The notes beneath the pieces are model-generated. The model searched no databases, was not told where the DNA came from, and saw nothing but the letters and a program-made list of their open reading frames with translations. The translations under genes were made by a program, and so were the position numbers. Below are positions 4,970 to 29,823 of a DNA stretch of 38,717 nucleotides, piece after piece (position 1 is the stretch's first letter; each line of letters starts with the position of its first letter). This DNA comes from a virus: positions 1 to 38,717 of the IMG/VR virus record IMGVR_UViG_3300030098_001785; one strand, written 5' to 3'.

Positions 4970-5417
4970 TGTAACAATCAAGAAGCATCGGGGGCAACTC
5001 CGATGGTCGATCTTTATCCCTATAGATCCTGTCCCGGCTTCTCGGCCAAGGTTCGCGAGGTCGGGCAGGGTCTACTACGGGAAACGGTACACACAATTCC
5101 GTCGCCAAGCAGCAGCCCTGTTCGCGATGACGGAGTTCCCTGTAAAGTTTCCTTTATCTGGGAAGGTTGCTGTATCTACTAAGTTTGTAGTAGAGAGACC
5201 CAAGAGGACTAAACGCCACACGCCAAGAGGCGATGTCGATAACTACTTCAAAACACTGGACGTCCTCAACGAGGTTGTTTGGTGGGATGACGACCAACTT
5301 GTTTGGGCCAGTATGTCGAAAGAATACGGGGAGGCGAGTGGAATATATTTGGAGGTAATGGAAATTGACTTCGTTCCTGAGACACGAGCCTTGTCCCAAA
5401 TGTGGGTCAAGAGATAA
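4953..5417 (+). CDS. RusA-like Holliday-junction resolvase / endonuclease
   Basis: This 154-aa protein resembles RusA, a metal-dependent nuclease that resolves branched DNA. The N-terminal part has the family's proline and arginine pattern (PVPASRPRFARSGRVYY). The active-site segment is GDVDNYFKTLDVLNEVVW followed by DDDQLV, giving the expected aspartates and lysine. It occupies the place of T7 endonuclease I (gp3), so it is likely a non-homologous replacement that debranches replicating DNA before packaging. The ATG at 4953 overlaps the SSB gene by 17 nt; an in-frame ATG at 4905 would lengthen the overlap and has no better ribosome site. Its end overlaps the helicase start by 53 nt. Confidence 0.85.
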   Translation: MSSTSDVTIKKHRGQLRWSIFIPIDPVPASRPRFARSGRVYYGKRYTQFRRQAAALFAMTEFPVKFPLSGKVAVSTKFVVERPKRTKRHTPRGDVDNYFKTLDVLNEVVWWDDDQLVWASMSKEYGEASGIYLEVMEIDFVPETRALSQMWVKR

Positions 5418-6963
5418 TCTCGCTCGTTATTCGGACGGACATGCCTACTGCTTCGGCTGTGGGTATTACGAACACGCTGATGGCACTTCTACCTATAAGG
5501 AGACTCACAAAGTGTCTGGACTTATCGAACATGAAATCGTCCCGTTGGTAAAACGGGGCATCGAGATCGAGACTTGCCAGAAATGGAAGTACGGTGTCGG
5601 TGAATACAATGGCAAGCCTGTGCAGATCGCAAACTACTGCGACAAGCAGGGGCAGATCATCGCGCAGAAACTGCGCTTCGCTGATAAGAGTTTCAGGTGG
5701 CTTGGAGACACCTCCAAGGTCGGCCTCTACGGCTCCCACCTCTGCCGAGACGCAGGTAAGTGGGTAATCATCACCGAGGGGGAGACTGATGCTCTCTCCG
5801 TATCTCAGGCGTTCAACCTGAAGTGGGCTGTGGTCTCACTTCCTAATGGTGCGAAATCTGCACCGAAGGTCGTGGCCGAACACATTGACTGGTTGGAGAA
5901 CTTTGAATCCGTCGTATTGTGTTTCGATCAAGACGAACAGGGGCGCAAAGCAGCAGTCGAGGCCGCCCAGATGTTGAGTCCGGGCAAGGCTAAGATCGTT
6001 ACCAACCTCCCCCAGAAGGATGCGAACGACTGCCTGAAGAGCGGTCAAGTTAAGGAGTTACTTGAGGCTATATACGGAGCGCCCACTTTTAGGCCCGATG
6101 GCGTCATCCCCGGAGAGGAACTTTGGGAGTCCATCATCAAGGAAGATGACCGCCAGTCGATCCCCTACCCTTGGTCCGGCTTGAACAGTAAGTTGTTTGG
6201 CATGCGGGGTGGTGAACTCGTCACCCTGACTGCTGGTACTGGCATTGGTAAGAGCAGCGTCACTCGGGAACTCGCCTACTACCTGATCGAGATGGGTCAG
6301 AAGGTAGGGTATATCGCTCTAGAAGAGTCCTGTCGGCGTACTGCTGAACACATCATGGGACTCCATATGTACAACCCTCCGTTCCGTTGGGCTGAGACGG
6401 GCGTCACTGAGGAGCAGAAGAGAGAGGCGTTTGACGCGACTGTAGGGTCTGGGAAGATGGTTCTGTATGACCACTGGGGGTCCATCGATCCGACCAACCT
6501 ACTGAATAGAATTAGATACATGGCGAGAGCCATGGAATGCAAGTGCGTCTTTCTCGATCACCTTTCGATCGTCGTCAGTGCGCTTGAGTCCGGCGACGAG
6601 CGTCGGATGATTGACAACACGATGACTCGTTTGCGCAGCCTCGTAGAGGAAACGGGCGTCCACCTCGTGTTGGTGTCACATTTACGTCGCCCAGATGGGA
6701 GGTCACATGAAGAAGGTGGGAATACTAGCCTTGCTCAGTTGCGTGGTAGTCATGCTATTGCACAACTCTCGGACGCAGTCATCGGATGCGAACGAGATCA
6801 ACAGGACGAAAGCACATCCAACCGGCTTACGTTGCGAGTACTCAAAAACAGATACGCTGGGCTCACCGGAGTCGCACAGACCCTTGAATACGACGATAAG
6901 AATGGACGACTTACTGAGTGGATCGCCCCAGAAGTCATTGACGTACCCGGACTCGACACCTGA
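5365..6963 (+). CDS. T7 gp4-like primase-helicase
   Basis: This 532-aa bifunctional replication protein has an N-terminal zinc-binding domain with CPKC and CFGC Cys pairs (residues 10-33). A TOPRIM primase domain follows (ITEGETDALSV, and CFDQDEQGRKAA). The C-terminal RecA-like hexameric helicase has Walker A TAGTGIGKSS, Walker B VFLDHLSIV and motif H4 LRGSHAIAQLSD. The start is TTG at 5365, preceded by a perfect GGAGGT (5351-5356). Any later start would lose the first Cys pair, so the 53-nt overlap with the RusA gene looks real. Its last 257 nt also encode the leader and linker of the lysozyme gene in another frame, including across the conserved H4 motif. Confidence 0.96.
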   Translation: MTSFLRHEPCPKCGSRDNLARYSDGHAYCFGCGYYEHADGTSTYKETHKVSGLIEHEIVPLVKRGIEIETCQKWKYGVGEYNGKPVQIANYCDKQGQIIAQKLRFADKSFRWLGDTSKVGLYGSHLCRDAGKWVIITEGETDALSVSQAFNLKWAVVSLPNGAKSAPKVVAEHIDWLENFESVVLCFDQDEQGRKAAVEAAQMLSPGKAKIVTNLPQKDANDCLKSGQVKELLEAIYGAPTFRPDGVIPGEELWESIIKEDDRQSIPYPWSGLNSKLFGMRGGELVTLTAGTGIGKSSVTRELAYYLIEMGQKVGYIALEESCRRTAEHIMGLHMYNPPFRWAETGVTEEQKREAFDATVGSGKMVLYDHWGSIDPTNLLNRIRYMARAMECKCVFLDHLSIVVSALESGDERRMIDNTMTRLRSLVEETGVHLVLVSHLRRPDGRSHEEGGNTSLAQLRGSHAIAQLSDAVIGCERDQQDESTSNRLTLRVLKNRYAGLTGVAQTLEYDDKNGRLTEWIAPEVIDVPGLDT

Positions 6964-7309
6964 GGACTACAGGAAACTACTGGATGCGATACGGATCCAA
7001 GAGACTGGAGGCCACTCCTCACCGCAGGATGCAGTAGGTGATGGAGGAAGGTCTCTTGGGCCGTATCAAATATCAGAGGACTACTGGTTAGACGCCGTCG
7101 AGTATCGGCCCCGAATTGGAGGGACATATCAAGATGTCAAGAGAGAAGGATACGCAGAAGAAATCATCTGCGCCTACTGGGACCGATGGTGTAGAGGCGG
7201 CTCATGGGAAACAAGGGCACGCACGCATAACGGGGGACCGATGGGATCGCGGAAAACTGCTACAGAAAAATACTGGCAGGCCGTGTCCGATCGTCTTGGG
7301 GGTAGGTGA
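6707..7309 (+). CDS. Endolysin: i-type (destabilase-like) lysozyme with N-terminal signal or anchor
   Basis: This 200-aa protein would cut peptidoglycan at lysis. The catalytic domain (about 85-200) has the invertebrate-type lysozyme pattern: IQETGG with candidate catalytic Glu99, Asp112 before SLGPYQI, then YWLDA, AYWDRW, and ARTHNGGPMG followed by YW. Most cysteines of animal i-type lysozymes are missing. From ATG 6707 the N-terminus is KK followed by 16 hydrophobic residues (VGILALLSCVVVMLLH), suited to a Sec or signal-arrest-release leader. GGGAGGT lies just upstream (6697-6703). The leader and linker overlap the helicase gene out of frame, and the catalytic domain starts where the helicase ends. 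An alternative start at ATG 6902 would give a leaderless cytosolic enzyme but lacks a ribosome site. T7 has an amidase (gp3.5) instead. Confidence 0.8.
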   Translation: MKKVGILALLSCVVVMLLHNSRTQSSDANEINRTKAHPTGLRCEYSKTDTLGSPESHRPLNTTIRMDDLLSGSPQKSLTYPDSTPEDYRKLLDAIRIQETGGHSSPQDAVGDGGRSLGPYQISEDYWLDAVEYRPRIGGTYQDVKREGYAEEIICAYWDRWCRGGSWETRARTHNGGPMGSRKTATEKYWQAVSDRLGGR

Positions 7310-7517
7310 ACGGGCAACGTGGTTGCAAATTGCGGAATGGCTCTCTGAGGAGGAGGGGTGTGTGATTCCCCCTCAAACTATCCAGAGAGCATTCAACACC
7401 ACCCTGAAGAGGTTGGGGGTCACTCTACTAAAGGATCGCTTCATCCGAACGTGGCTCGAAGACAACGGCTTTGAACTTCCTGATGAGGAAGAGAAAGGAG
7501 ACTTATGTACACCCTAG
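7134..7517 (+). CDS. Hypothetical protein with HTH-like C-terminal half
   Basis: This 127-aa protein is not recognised. The C-terminal half (from ATWLQIAEWLSEEEG through TIQRAFNTTLKRLG) has the helix spacing of a small winged or helix-turn-helix DNA-binding domain, then an acidic tail. ATG 7134 has GGAGGG 10 nt upstream but overlaps the lysozyme gene by 176 nt. A later start near TTG 7296 would keep the HTH-like part and nearly remove the overlap, so the N-terminal 55 residues are uncertain. Its last 13 nt overlap the DNA polymerase start, suggesting translational coupling. Confidence 0.6.
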   Translation: MSREKDTQKKSSAPTGTDGVEAAHGKQGHARITGDRWDRGKLLQKNTGRPCPIVLGVGERATWLQIAEWLSEEEGCVIPPQTIQRAFNTTLKRLGVTLLKDRFIRTWLEDNGFELPDEEEKGDLCTP

Positions 7518-13750: not shown

Positions 13751-13945
13751 ATGAAGCCCGGATATAAAACTACTGAATTCTGGATGAGCATGATCGCCGT
13801 TGTAATCGGCGCAGTTATGGCATCTGGTGCGTTTGATCTCGGCGGGACCTCGGCTCAGGTCGTGGGACTCGTTGAGGCCGCTCTTGTCGCTCTTGGGTAC
13901 ACCGGCGCACGCCTAACCCTTAAGAAGGGCGAAGGACAGGGGTGA
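13751..13945 (+). CDS. Holin-like small membrane protein
   Basis: This 64-aa protein has two hydrophobic segments (about 11-27, MSMIAVVIGAVMASGAF; and 34-52, AQVVGLVEAALVALGYTGA) and a basic tail. The pattern PGYKTTEFW...GYTGARLTLK is common in small phage membrane proteins often labelled holin-like. The ATG has GAGGTAA upstream, overlapping the scaffold stop. It begins a small group with an overlapping ORF and a lipoprotein, which resembles a lysis cassette placed unusually between scaffold and capsid. The function is inferred. Confidence 0.7.
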   Translation: MKPGYKTTEFWMSMIAVVIGAVMASGAFDLGGTSAQVVGLVEAALVALGYTGARLTLKKGEGQG

Positions 13946-22703: not shown

Positions 22704-25700
22704 ATGACAAATAACGTCTTCGATATTACTTCTCCAGAATATGTGGAGCCCACCCCCTCAACCCTGTTCCATACCGTTGAGACCCCACGGGATCGCTCAA
22801 TGAGAGAACTCTCTCTTGAGTATGCGTTTCGACCGAATATGGACATCGGCTTTGGAGGCAAGATATATAACGCCTTCGCGAATGAAACTGTTATCGGAGA
22901 GGTGCTTAGGGAACTCTCTGCCCCCAACTACAGAGACACCGGGTACGTCGTCACAAAGGAAGATATTGAGAAATACGCTGGAGATATCGATCCGGCAGCA
23001 GCGGCCCGCGCAGCAGCATCTTCAAATTCCTTTGGGGAGTTCCTATACGAAACCGATGAGATCCGTCTGACGGAGAAAAGGCGAAAGGAATTATATTCCG
23101 GTGGAGCACTCGGGTTTACTACGGGCCTCGGACTGACCGTACTCGCCGCAGGTGGAGAGGCTGTTGCTCTGTCTATTCTTGCAGGAGCAGTCGGAGGACC
23201 GGCAGGGGCGGCGGCTGGAGCGGGGAATGCTATTAACAGGATGACCCGTATTAAGGGGATGCTGAAAGGTATGGGCCTTGCGGCCGCCATCGATGTACCT
23301 CTTGAGACAACCAGATACGCCCTCGATAAGACTCTTCGCCCCACGGATCTGATGATTGCTCTTGGAGCATCCGCCGGTATAACTGGCGCGATCGGAGCCT
23401 ATAAGCCCCACCTCTTCCTCCCAGAACTCCAGAAGGCTTCAGATGTCGCTACTAAACGAGCGGCTGCTAGTGCCCTCAGGGAAGCAGGGGATGAGGAAGC
23501 AGCGGAGGCGATCGAGAAGACGATCTCAATGTCTGTCCGAGTAGTAGATCCTGAGGACGGCCTTGAAGACCTTATTGATCTAAAAGGAGCCGAACTCTTC
23601 GCAGAAGCGAGGCGTCTTGGGGTACAGACTCATCGCGTAAACGATAAAGGCCGCAAAGTATTTCGGACCCAAGACGATATCCGTAAGGATATCCTCGTCG
23701 CAAGGGCTCCAGAGAGCGAAGTTCCAATCGTATCTGAGAAGAAAGCCCTGTTCGCGATGGCGAAAGAAAAGGGCGTTGAAACTACGCGAGTCACAGAGTC
23801 CGGCCGAAAGGTCCCGAGGAAGGCTCAGGATGTCAGGGACGACCTGATCAAGATCGCTAGGAAAGAGAAGAAGACTGCGACCCCCGAACAGGTGAGGAAG
23901 CAGGCTCTTCGGGATACTGAAGGACTGGGACGTAAAGCCCTCGTACGAATGGCGAAGAAGATTGGAGCAAGGTCTACTGGATCTGCTGAAACAATCCGAG
24001 CATCAATCGTGGCGACCCGTGTCAACATCGCGAAGACGGGCAAGAAGACGAGCCTAGACGTCCCGAAGAAACTACCAAAAGGTCTCAAGAAGACTGTATC
24101 CCACAAGGGGGGAAAGATTCAACTCAAGGGGAGTTTCGAGAAATTACTCTGGAAACTGGGAACAACAAAAGATAAAGGATCCGACGTCGCGTCTGAAATC
24201 CGAAGGATCCTTAAAGAACGCGGATTTGAAGATCCTGACGCCATCGCTAAGGACTTCGTAAAGAAGGCTCGGGCCGCAAAGAAGACCGAAGGTAAAGTCT
24301 TCGTCGCTGATGCGGAGAAGATGGATCTGCCCGGTGCGAGACTGGAACTTGAGGACGGCACGGTCGTGACCGGGTTTACTCGACAGACGGAGATGGAGAC
24401 CAAGGTTGACTCTGACATTCTCGGAGAGGACGCAGATCGGGTAATCACTTTGAACGGCAAACCGATTGCCGAGGGACCTGCTGAGTACGTCGATGAAGTC
24501 GCTTATATGGAAACACAGGACCCCGGCTTTATGACCATCACGGGGCATAATCAGGGGACACGAGAAACGATCGCGAGAATAATTGAGACGTTCCCGGCAG
24601 ACGTTGCGGGACTTAAATGGCTTTACAACATCTTTGCCCCCGTTACTGTGAGGTTCCTCAGAAGTAAGAGTTCGGACGTACGAAAGTTTGCCCAAGAGTT
24701 CTTGGAGAACCCTCGATCAGCGACATCCAACGTGACTACGCGTGCCCGGATCGCTTATGAGAATCATTACGGAACTCTTAGACAGTCAATAAACGCAGCC
24801 CGAAAAGAAGCCCACGAAGCCGGTTCAAAACTAACGGACCTTGAGATCCTAAGAGCAGTCCGGTCGGGGGAGGAATTTGATGGCCCTCTCGGAACCGCCG
24901 TCAATGCTGTACGGAAATATCACAGAGACGTCAAGGCGTATGGAGCAAAACGAGGACTCGCCCTCGACTCCATCCCAGATGATGGAAGGTACGTTACTCG
25001 TTCCTACAACCACTCCGCCTTTACTAAGATCATCAATGATCTAGGCGAGAATGGACGGGAAGAAGTTGAAGAGGTATTTACTCAGGCCATCCTAAAGCAT
25101 TCAGATGCGGAGGAGATGGGAGTAACGGAAGCGAAGGCGAGGGCCGCCGCGAAGCGTATTGTTGATTGGGGATCTAACCCGAGACAAGTACTCGACGTAA
25201 AAGAGACGCGTACCCGACTTGACGTCATCCGAAAAGAACTTATTGACGACGGCATTCCGGAGGAGGAAGTCGATTCCTTTATGGAATTGATCGTTCCAAA
25301 GTTGGATACGGAGCCGCATCTCTCAGTCGCTAAACGTCGTATTGCTCTGGATGAAAACTTCTCAGTAACAGTCAACGGCAAGACACTCCACATTGATGAG
25401 TTCTTCAATAACAATCTGCTGGAACTGACGGGTCGGTACGGTCAGCGAGTCATTGGCGGGGCTGAAATTCGAGTAGGACTTCAAAACGCTTACGGCAACC
25501 CCGACATGACGCGAGCCGACCTGCTATCTCGACTCACTAGGTCTGAGGGCGTGGACGCAGGGGAAGCGAAGTTTGTTGAAAGGGCTGTCGACCACGCGTA
25601 CAAGGGACTCGCTGGGATGCCTCTCTACGGAAATAGGGAGGGAATGAAGTGGATCATGGGCGCTCAAGCATTCGGTCAGGCCACTATTGGAATGACCCTC

Positions 25701-26990
25701 GGGTTTGCTCAGATCCCTGAGATTGCTGCGATCGTTATGCGGACGGGGGTTCGAGCCTCCTTCCAGCAGTTGCCTTCCCTTAAAGAGATCGGGAACATCT
25801 TCACGATGGGCATCCGAGATATCGCTACAGGTCGGCAGGGACTTGGCCTTGAGGCCCTCAGAAAAATGAAAGATGATCTTTCCTCTGTCCTTGAGACGTG
25901 GACTGGTGTCGGCGGTGACTACGCGAGAGGCGATCACTTCATGCGACGCTTGGATGACATGGGATTTGATTCCGAGTACCTGTCCAAGGGAGCGATGCGA
26001 TATCTCGAATACGGCCGCCAAGTCTCCCTACTGAACCCCCTCGGAATTATGCCGATGGATACGTTCCTGAGGAGGTGGGCGGTTCGCTCTTCCTTCCAGC
26101 ACTTCGTAAACCAAGCATACGAGGTCGGGGCAGACGGCGTTGTCACTCTTAATAAAGGCTACTGGAAGAACTCCGAGACTCACTTCAAGCAACTTGGGAT
26201 GAGTGCGGAGGATATTGCGAGGCTCTCTAAAGCGATTAAAGACCCCGGCGTGATCACTACTCGTCCGGGCATGTTCGGTAAATACACCGTTAAAGATATG
26301 GATCTGACGAAAGTTAAAGATAAGGAGATCTTTGATAAATTCGCGATCGCGTTGCGTCGTCACTCGGACGGTATGGTTCAACGCCAATCCTTTGGCGAGA
26401 CCCCGATGTGGATGAGCACGCCCCTCGGTAAACTCCTCGGACAATATCGAGTCTTTATGATGGCTTCTAAATCGAAGCAGTTGGCGGCTGGCATCGCAAG
26501 AGGAGACGCCCACGAGGCCGCGAACGTCGTAGGTGCTATCGGACTTGGATCTCTCGCTTACTACATGCAGACTTATTACAGGTCGGCATCGATGGAGTCT
26601 GGGGATCGACAGGCTTACTTAGAGAAACGACTGTCTTCTGACTACATTCTTAGGGCGGGAATTATGAAGAGTTCATACTCGACCATCTTCCCGATGTTGA
26701 TTGACTCGGCTTCGTACACACTTGGAGGAGAGCCTATATTTGATCCATCTATGAGAACTACTGGACTGGGCATTGACCCGCTTCGGGGATCAGTCCCATA
26801 CAGTATTCTTTACAATAGACTCCTCCCAGCGGGTCGCGAACTAACTGGAGCCGCCTTTAGGGGCGACGAGTTATCGAAACAAGATTTCAGGAATGCACAG
26901 GGACTCCTATGGTTCGCAAAGATGCCGGGAGTGGATCAGATGATAAACAGGCTGTTTATCAATCAACTTAACGTACCAGAGAAGGACTAA
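22704..26990 (+). CDS. Internal virion protein D (T7 gp16-like) with SAP-like repeats
   Basis: This 1428-aa DNA-ejection protein is the largest gene. Hydrophobic stretches lie at about 133-174 (ALGFTTGLGLTVLAAGG, AGAVGGPAGAAAGAG) and 212-235, suited to membrane passage. The N-terminus shows no transglycosylase motif like that of T7 gp16. Residues about 289-437 hold three imperfect repeats (ELFAEARRLGVQTHRV, ALFAMAKEKGVETTRV, ALVRMAKKIGARSTG), each followed by a basic segment and DDIRKDI, DVRDDL or TIRASI. This is the layout of SAP-type DNA-binding helices. The C-terminal part (GKLLGQYRVFMMASKSKQ) resembles gp16 ends. GAGGAG precedes the ATG. Confidence 0.9.
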   Translation: MTNNVFDITSPEYVEPTPSTLFHTVETPRDRSMRELSLEYAFRPNMDIGFGGKIYNAFANETVIGEVLRELSAPNYRDTGYVVTKEDIEKYAGDIDPAAAARAAASSNSFGEFLYETDEIRLTEKRRKELYSGGALGFTTGLGLTVLAAGGEAVALSILAGAVGGPAGAAAGAGNAINRMTRIKGMLKGMGLAAAIDVPLETTRYALDKTLRPTDLMIALGASAGITGAIGAYKPHLFLPELQKASDVATKRAAASALREAGDEEAAEAIEKTISMSVRVVDPEDGLEDLIDLKGAELFAEARRLGVQTHRVNDKGRKVFRTQDDIRKDILVARAPESEVPIVSEKKALFAMAKEKGVETTRVTESGRKVPRKAQDVRDDLIKIARKEKKTATPEQVRKQALRDTEGLGRKALVRMAKKIGARSTGSAETIRASIVATRVNIAKTGKKTSLDVPKKLPKGLKKTVSHKGGKIQLKGSFEKLLWKLGTTKDKGSDVASEIRRILKERGFEDPDAIAKDFVKKARAAKKTEGKVFVADAEKMDLPGARLELEDGTVVTGFTRQTEMETKVDSDILGEDADRVITLNGKPIAEGPAEYVDEVAYMETQDPGFMTITGHNQGTRETIARIIETFPADVAGLKWLYNIFAPVTVRFLRSKSSDVRKFAQEFLENPRSATSNVTTRARIAYENHYGTLRQSINAARKEAHEAGSKLTDLEILRAVRSGEEFDGPLGTAVNAVRKYHRDVKAYGAKRGLALDSIPDDGRYVTRSYNHSAFTKIINDLGENGREEVEEVFTQAILKHSDAEEMGVTEAKARAAAKRIVDWGSNPRQVLDVKETRTRLDVIRKELIDDGIPEEEVDSFMELIVPKLDTEPHLSVAKRRIALDENFSVTVNGKTLHIDEFFNNNLLELTGRYGQRVIGGAEIRVGLQNAYGNPDMTRADLLSRLTRSEGVDAGEAKFVERAVDHAYKGLAGMPLYGNREGMKWIMGAQAFGQATIGMTLGFAQIPEIAAIVMRTGVRASFQQLPSLKEIGNIFTMGIRDIATGRQGLGLEALRKMKDDLSSVLETWTGVGGDYARGDHFMRRLDDMGFDSEYLSKGAMRYLEYGRQVSLLNPLGIMPMDTFLRRWAVRSSFQHFVNQAYEVGADGVVTLNKGYWKNSETHFKQLGMSAEDIARLSKAIKDPGVITTRPGMFGKYTVKDMDLTKVKDKEIFDKFAIALRRHSDGMVQRQSFGETPMWMSTPLGKLLGQYRVFMMASKSKQLAAGIARGDAHEAANVVGAIGLGSLAYYMQTYYRSASMESGDRQAYLEKRLSSDYILRAGIMKSSYSTIFPMLIDSASYTLGGEPIFDPSMRTTGLGIDPLRGSVPYSILYNRLLPAGRELTGAAFRGDELSKQDFRNAQGLLWFAKMPGVDQMINRLFINQLNVPEKD

Positions 26991-29610: not shown

Positions 29611-29823
29611 ATGGATAATGAAATATTGATCGCGTTAGGCCGCCTTGAAGGAAAGGTGGACGCCCTCATCGCTCGCCAAGCAATCCATGATGAGGAACTT
29701 GATCGCCACGATAAGAGGCTTCGAGATCTTGAACAGTCAAAAGCGTGGGTTCTTGGGGCGGCCGCAGTCATCGGGGCTGCCGCTGCGTTAATTATGAATA
29801 TGATTGGAGGCGACAGTGGCTGA
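29611..29823 (+). CDS. Holin-accessory-like protein (coiled coil plus C-terminal membrane segment)
   Basis: This 70-aa protein has an N-terminal charged coiled coil (about 8-43; LGRLEGKVDALIARQAIHDE) and a C-terminal hydrophobic segment (about 46-64; VLGAAAVIGAAAALIMNMI). This matches the XhlA-type layout. T7 gp17.5 holin is in the same place between tail fibre and small terminase, so a lysis role is likely. A second holin-like gene is at 13751. The small terminase starts within its last codons. Confidence 0.75.
   Translation: MDNEILIALGRLEGKVDALIARQAIHDEELDRHDKRLRDLEQSKAWVLGAAAVIGAAAALIMNMIGGDSG

Follow-up and report, generated by a model that had tools for sequence, protein, structure and literature searches.

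Overprinting of a predicted lysozyme leader on the primase-helicase gene in a clade of T7-like phages

Introduction

Can the last codons of a phage replication gene also encode the targeting leader of a cell-wall enzyme? The question is raised by a locus in the IMG/VR record IMGVR_UViG_3300030098_001785, whose analysed stretch of 38,717 bases (hereinafter the window) has the gene order of a T7-like podophage. A first-pass annotation had proposed that an endolysin gene starts inside the helicase gene, with its leader written over a core helicase motif in an alternative frame. Here we describe the locus and its relatives, ask whether the second frame is selected or fortuitous, and weigh the possible starts and fates of the leader.

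Organization of the locus

The genes of the window encode, in this order, a phage RNA polymerase, a gp2.5-like SSB, RusA, the primase-helicase, the leader-lysozyme ORF and DNA polymerase A, followed by an exonuclease, portal-type connector, scaffold, capsid, tail proteins, internal virion proteins, tail fibre and terminases. The features of the helicase-lysozyme region are as follows; the start codon of the primase-helicase is uncertain and is given as listed (TTG 5365).

5365..6963, + strand: T7-type primase-helicase gene, frame 0 (PHROG 239 DNA primase/helicase, E=1.7e-177; Pfam DnaB_C, Toprim, Helic-prim_T7_N)
6697..6703, + strand: Shine-Dalgarno GGGAGGT of the leader start, itself coding for helicase Gly-Arg
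6707..7309, + strand: leader-lysozyme ORF of 200 aa, shifted by +1 against the helicase frame; open in all 24 non-redundant loci that carry the lysozyme
6707..6963, + strand: dual-coding region, 257 nt, helicase C-terminus and lysozyme leader plus linker
6716..6781, + strand: predicted hydrophobic signal/anchor helix, leader residues 4-25, VGILALLSCVVVMLLHNSRTQS (hydropathy; AlphaFold2 helix 5-25, pLDDT about 53)
6742..6774, + strand: helicase motif RGSHAIAQLSD (helicase alignment), under leader residues 12-23
6782..6958, + strand: polar linker, predicted disordered, residues 26-84 (pLDDT about 30-46), over A/C-rich helicase wobble positions
6959..7306, + strand: predicted i-type lysozyme (destabilase-fold) catalytic domain, residues 85-200 (profile and structure-model matches to destabilase)
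7116..7517, + strand: downstream small ORF, start uncertain, overlapping the lysozyme 3' end

Both the ATG at 6707 and the upstream GGGAGGT named in the first-pass annotation are present, the latter at 6697-6703, and the proposed leader does lie over the helicase motif RGSHAIAQLSD. Reading from this ATG gives MKKVGILALLSCVVVMLLHNSRTQSSDANEIN, then a polar stretch and then the lysozyme domain. The claim of a KK-plus-hydrophobic leader followed by a linker was likewise confirmed: KK precedes the hydrophobic segment, whose Kyte-Doolittle peak is 3.02 over 15 aa, and the layout of the 200-aa product is KK, hydrophobic stretch, polar linker of ~60 residues and i-type (destabilase-fold) lysozyme domain. 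A ribosome starting at the internal ATG 6707 would read the +1 frame into the 200-residue lysozyme, and frame 0 gives the last 85 residues of the helicase, which make up its share of the 257-nt overlap and end at the stop codon 6961-6963. Lysozyme residues 1-84 would then exist solely through the overlap.

The small ORF at 7116-7517 lies between the lysozyme and the DNA polymerase, in a frame other than that of the lysozyme; in phage CRP-403, the gene at this position is annotated as helix-turn-helix.

Conservation of the start site and the open frame

Searches of viral contigs with both proteins, lysozyme and helicase, as queries yielded, in non-redundant counts, 24 overlap loci (window included), 7 adjacent loci and 58 helicases without a lysozyme (T7 included). 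The window lysozyme is 53-74% identical to its nearest relatives over the full length. All relatives are uncultured contigs, and tblastn of the cultured phages in the collection with two lysozyme queries found no lysozyme homologue.

All 24 overlap loci have an ATG in the +1 frame at the same helicase codons, which read HEEG, HEDG or, in L005/L007, YEDG, and in all of them the frame stays open through the helicase stop into the lysozyme. Frame breaks in relatives, sought as evidence against the overlap, were absent from these 24 non-redundant lysozyme-bearing loci; only the fragment L010 deviates. There (707-2737), a small indel relative to L006 merges the helicase and lysozyme frames and alters both genes; because it breaks both frames at once, L010 may be an assembly error or a dead copy.

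An open +1 frame could in principle be a by-product of conserved helicase sequence and codon usage, with the true lysozyme start near the helicase stop. The HEEG codons readily yield ATG-AAG-AAG in the +1 frame, which in T7 (gene 4.2) and L090 is open although no lysozyme is present. In roughly half of the overlap loci, a further ATG lies at most ~37 nt before the helicase stop, in some cases with a good Shine-Dalgarno. Chance was assessed by a randomisation in which the helicase protein was held fixed, synonymous codons were redrawn from the gene's own usage and the +1 frame was read. With the protein fixed in this way, only 0.46 of the 24 overlap loci would be expected to have an open frame, against 24 observed; the ATG at the start site was found in 24/24 loci (10.5 expected) and the hydrophobic peak was 2.18 (0.58 expected). 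For the window alone, 41% of the shuffles had the ATG and 0.55% an open frame, and 0/2000 reached the hydrophobic peak of the natural sequence. Among the lysozyme-less loci, the same test found an open frame in 2/57 (T7 gene 4.2 and L090) against 2.8 expected; with T7 left out, the frame is closed in 56/57 of these helicases. The adjacent loci have neither the ATG (0/7) nor an open frame, and the control frame +2 is open in 0/24 overlap loci. The late ATGs that might have served as the true start number 13 against 11.7 expected and are absent from the window and from L001-L004, and the wobble bias described below tracks the needs of the leader in the overlap group only. The by-product explanation is thus largely refuted already, and we consider it very improbable.

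The Shine-Dalgarno sequences of the overlap loci are stronger (mean -7.85 kcal/mol) than expected from synonymous shuffles (-5.83 kcal/mol), whereas they are close to expectation in lysozyme-less loci and do not exceed it in the rest.

In the adjacent class (L136, L139, L144, L164, L165, L166 and L168), which forms a separate helicase clade, the lysozyme is found at the helicase stop with a short N-terminus (e.g. MNMITRFLKLITILPKPRHS) and no overlap. The leader is therefore not indispensable to every helicase-linked lysozyme.

Selection on silent sites of the helicase

In the overlap, each wobble base of the helicase serves as the middle base of a leader codon, so selection on the leader acts through 'silent' helicase sites. 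Comparison of synonymous sites across the overlap, the check suggested by the first-pass annotation, showed raised conservation in lysozyme-bearing loci only. For overlap loci at 45-70% protein identity, synonymous identity is about 0.43 in the overlap vs 0.33-0.38 upstream, whereas lysozyme-less loci show no rise (0.35 in the overlap region vs 0.34-0.38 upstream). The window and L001/L002 differ by 0.14-0.18 synonymous changes per codon within the leader and by 0.40-0.45 upstream of it. The pair L035/L106 shows the opposite trend, perhaps due to recombination.

The bases at these sites would be expected to be T where the leader must be hydrophobic and A or C where it must be polar. Over the hydrophobic stretch, T occupies 0.415 of helicase wobble positions in overlap loci vs 0.28 in lysozyme-less helicases, and over the linker A+C occupy 0.65 vs 0.49; the bias matches the needs of the leader in the overlap group only. 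As T at codon position 2 specifies hydrophobic residues and A or C specify polar or small ones, the silent sites of the helicase are written for a second protein.

Both frames are under selection: the helicase is conserved, and the +1 frame is open in 24/24 loci vs 0.46 expected, with raised synonymous conservation and a wobble switch. These results support the apparent overprinting noted in the first-pass annotation, and the overlap is selected rather than a product of chance. Dual coding, the conserved start and second-frame selection are results of computation, as is the lysozyme fold described below.

Choice of the start codon

The +1 frame of the window is open from a further ATG upstream, at 6695, to the TGA at 7307-7309. 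The ATG 6695 has no Shine-Dalgarno in the window, is missing from several relatives and was rejected as a start. The possibility that translation begins only at 6902 or later was also checked and found no support: the Met codon at 6902 lacks a Shine-Dalgarno (+0.3 kcal/mol) and is not conserved, being replaced by Gln in L002 and Leu in L003. By contrast, every locus retains ATG 6707 together with its Shine-Dalgarno. Late starts generally are neither conserved nor enriched.

Some phages might use two starts, making a long membrane-anchored form and a short, leaderless cytoplasmic form from a start near the helicase stop. Such a late start, an ATG at -31 (in some also at -25) from the helicase stop with a strong Shine-Dalgarno, is found in L006, L008, L035, L099, L104 and L106, and nine loci have a late start of this kind vs 5.8 expected. 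This nominal excess, however, is small; the ATG in question is absent from the window and L001-L004, and L003 has a GTG with a closely spaced Shine-Dalgarno. We regard dual starts in some phages as improbable, and as a general rule they find no support in the late-start counts.

The lysozyme domain

In an AlphaFold2 model built with 24 sequences, residues 5-25 form a helix of low confidence, the region from about 26 to 84 is disordered, and residues 85-199 make up a domain whose pLDDT is mostly >90. Residue 85 is encoded from nt 6959 and the helicase stop codon is 6961-6963; the domain therefore starts at the helicase stop, just as the first-pass annotation had it. Two positions of the predicted active site are added to the features.

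7001..7003, + strand: Glu99, aligned with the catalytic Glu of i-type lysozymes, invariant in 24/24 loci
7040..7042, + strand: Asp112, at or one residue off the catalytic Asp position, present in 19/24 loci

A profile built from 14 relatives matched leech destabilase (8bbu, E=4.4e-20) and further i-type lysozymes. The modelled domain superimposes on destabilase 8bbw with a VIA-align Z of 15.7 and an rmsd of 2.3 A over 109 residues, and Foldseek matched it to destabilase with E=1.2e-5. The single window protein scored 21.1 bits against Pfam Destabilase (PF05497), below the gathering cut-off of 26.2, and a PHROGs search gave no family for the lysozyme domain itself. Since the profile and structure searches go far beyond the Pfam result, we use the term 'destabilase-fold' rather than calling the protein a Pfam member. 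The catalytic dyad of destabilase is Glu34/Asp46 (PMC10126035); Glu34 corresponds to Glu99 of the window, and the Asp, in the HMM alignment, is one residue off. By sequence and model, the enzyme domain is an i-type (destabilase-fold) lysozyme with predicted activity.

The fold, the catalytic Glu and an HNGGP motif are common to this enzyme and the i-type lysozymes of the destabilase family (PF05497). Animal i-type lysozymes are secreted, disulphide-rich proteins; the phage enzymes described here differ from them in having few or no Cys and an overprinted leader. The BFVD database already holds destabilase-like proteins of uncultured phages. The tree of the lysozyme domain was too poorly resolved to place the origin of the domain. 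Lysozymes of this fold are also widespread in planctomycete genome contigs (L171-L243), mostly with signal peptides or anchors.

Predicted role and fate of the leader

In homologues of the enzyme that are not linked to a helicase, from other viruses and from contigs that are mainly planctomycete, the domain is mostly preceded at once by a signal peptide or anchor; export is thus the usual state for this enzyme family. Within the overlap clade, the overprinted segment is the only hydrophobic segment able to serve export. Judged from hydropathy, the job of the leader is likely export or anchoring, and functional overprinting of an export leader on the helicase, whatever the later fate of that leader, is very probable. 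We infer that the ORF is translated in vivo and that its product undergoes membrane export, is active and takes part in host lysis.

The most likely fate is that of an uncleaved anchor with a long tether. The KK and the hydrophobic segment should be handled by the Sec pathway as an uncleaved signal anchor of N-in, C-out topology, and the flexible polar tether of ~60 residues would let the i-type lysozyme reach the peptidoglycan. The leaders vary, some being rich in weakly hydrophobic residues and others, including that of the window, strongly hydrophobic.

A second possibility, within the same export reading, is that the leader works by signal arrest and release, keeping the lysozyme membrane-bound and inactive until the membrane is depolarised by a pinholin. 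The N-terminal hydrophobic Sec-type segment expected of such endolysins is present (peak 3.02 over 15 aa, preceded by KK), Gly, Ala, Ser and Thr occur in several leaders, reaching 50% in L004, L006, L035 and L051, and the window encodes small hydrophobic holin-like candidates:

13751..13945, + strand: candidate holin, small hydrophobic protein (weak PHROG holin matches, E=0.015-0.018; hydropathy)
29611..29823, + strand: candidate holin-like protein with a C-terminal hydrophobic segment (weak Pfam XhlA match, E=0.056, below cut-off)

The second of these directly precedes the gene for the terminase small subunit, presumably the position of T7 17.5, and both are candidate partners of the lysozyme, with weak database matches. 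Many leaders, however, are strongly hydrophobic (weak residues make up 17% in the window), unlike the easily released type; 50-70 linker residues separate the segment from the enzyme, and no inactivation device was identified. Signal arrest and release is accordingly possible but not the fate we would expect.

Cleavage of the leader as a signal peptide, leaving the lysozyme free in the periplasm, is suggested by the classical-looking signal peptides of unlinked homologues (e.g. MKLITLLLAMPFVAHA), but an alignment of the 24 leaders inspected by eye has no position-conserved cleavage motif, and we consider this fate unlikely.

The leader-lysozyme may not be the sole wall-cutting enzyme of the phage, as a virion protein encoded at 22704-26990 has a further match, to a PHROG whose name refers to an endolysin domain. 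In L134 (2963-3836), other genes separate the helicase from a related lysozyme, whose frame extends over a different upstream ORF, again with a hydrophobic stretch (NLSVCVLTLTLLSC); this is a single case.

Gain and loss of the overlap

When the helicase tree is built from sequence outside the overlap region, the 24 overlap loci all belong to one clade of 36 rows, which also includes 12 lysozyme-less members; in several of the latter, DNA polymerase or a small downstream gene directly follows the helicase. The +1 frame is closed in 12/12 of these members and the ATG is kept in only 4; outside the clade, with T7 excluded, it is closed in 44/45 lysozyme-less helicases. The z-score of +1-frame hydropathy is 2.72 where the overlap is present and 0.14 outside the clade; the 12 members that lost the gene lie in between, at 1.15, a relic as expected of a decaying leader. 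Records that lost the helicase-linked lysozyme were searched for a copy elsewhere: most had none, and a distant copy was found in the L030 record.

The overlap state changes at least four times on well-supported branches. Independent pairs on the tree agree in direction (4/4; sign test p=0.125); with only four well-supported pairs, and related sequences sharing history, this test alone cannot pass 0.05. Most simply, the overlap would have arisen once, in the ancestor of one phage clade, and been lost several times later; after loss of the lysozyme the leader frame would decay while the helicase is kept.

Comparison with known systems

The mechanism of overprinting has already been described for the phiX174 genes D and E, where T-rich third positions of the older frame are second positions of the new one and give a Leu-rich hydrophobic sequence (PMC8227390). 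The two cases are alike in that the membrane segment of a lysis protein is overprinted on an older gene via T-rich third positions. However, E is a whole de novo protein nested in D and blocks wall synthesis, whereas in the window the overprinted part is limited to an enzyme's leader and linker, the older gene is the helicase of a dsDNA phage, and the enzyme domain lies beyond it. Signal-arrest-release endolysins such as Lys of phage HP1 (PMC7312051) likewise have an N-terminal hydrophobic segment on a phage wall-cutting enzyme; the leaders described here differ in their long tether, their dual coding and a segment that is often strongly hydrophobic. Our literature search found no paper on an endolysin leader overlapping a helicase and no published description of the helicase-lysozyme arrangement.

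Clade-wide in these mostly uncultured T7-like phages, the silent positions of an essential replication gene carry the predicted targeting leader of a cell-wall enzyme. Several natural losses of the overlap serve as controls, and the gain, keeping and loss of overprinted segments become directly testable. Exchanging synonymous codons in a phage helicase can disrupt a second protein. Gene-calling programs that disallow long overlaps may assign the lysozyme a later start and thereby lose the leader.

T7 gene 4.2 and the HEEG start site

These data also give a first lead on the site of T7 gene 4.2 (2289-2627 in L015, T7 V01146), an annotated overlapping gene assigned to PHROG 5140, function unknown. 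It starts at the same HEEG helicase codons and in the same +1 frame as the lysozyme leader and has an initial hydrophobic stretch, but it encodes 112 aa without a lysozyme and ends 61 nt past the helicase stop; T7 gp4 has RGSGALRQLSD at the place of the window motif RGSHAIAQLSD. The window leader matched PHROG 5140 from the first residue below threshold (E=0.16), a similarity that may stem from the shared helicase frame alone. No paper on the function of gene 4.2 was found in the literature, only a deletion reaching its C-terminus in heat-adapted T7. In the set L248-L251, the gene 4.2 frame is open past the helicase stop, unannotated, in the T3-like LL2, phiYe-F10, E-2 and Klebsiella phage KP3-1; it is closed in the T7 relative NC-A.

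Tentatively, and with the odds rather against it, the HEEG codons can be viewed as a standing, reusable start site (ATG-AAG-AAG with a preceding Shine-Dalgarno) at which membrane proteins were repeatedly overprinted in T7-like phages, namely gene 4.2 in the T7/T3 group, the short hydrophobic frames of P-RSP2 and L090 and, through fusion with an i-type lysozyme lying downstream, the anchored lysozyme.

At this site, L090 has an open hydrophobic +1 frame of 85 aa without a lysozyme, which ends 4 nt past the helicase stop at 1629 and is open in 0.05% of synonymous shuffles. Prochlorococcus phage P-RSP2 (L245) has a hydrophobic frame of 59 aa that starts from the same helicase codons (YEDG) and ends before the helicase stop.
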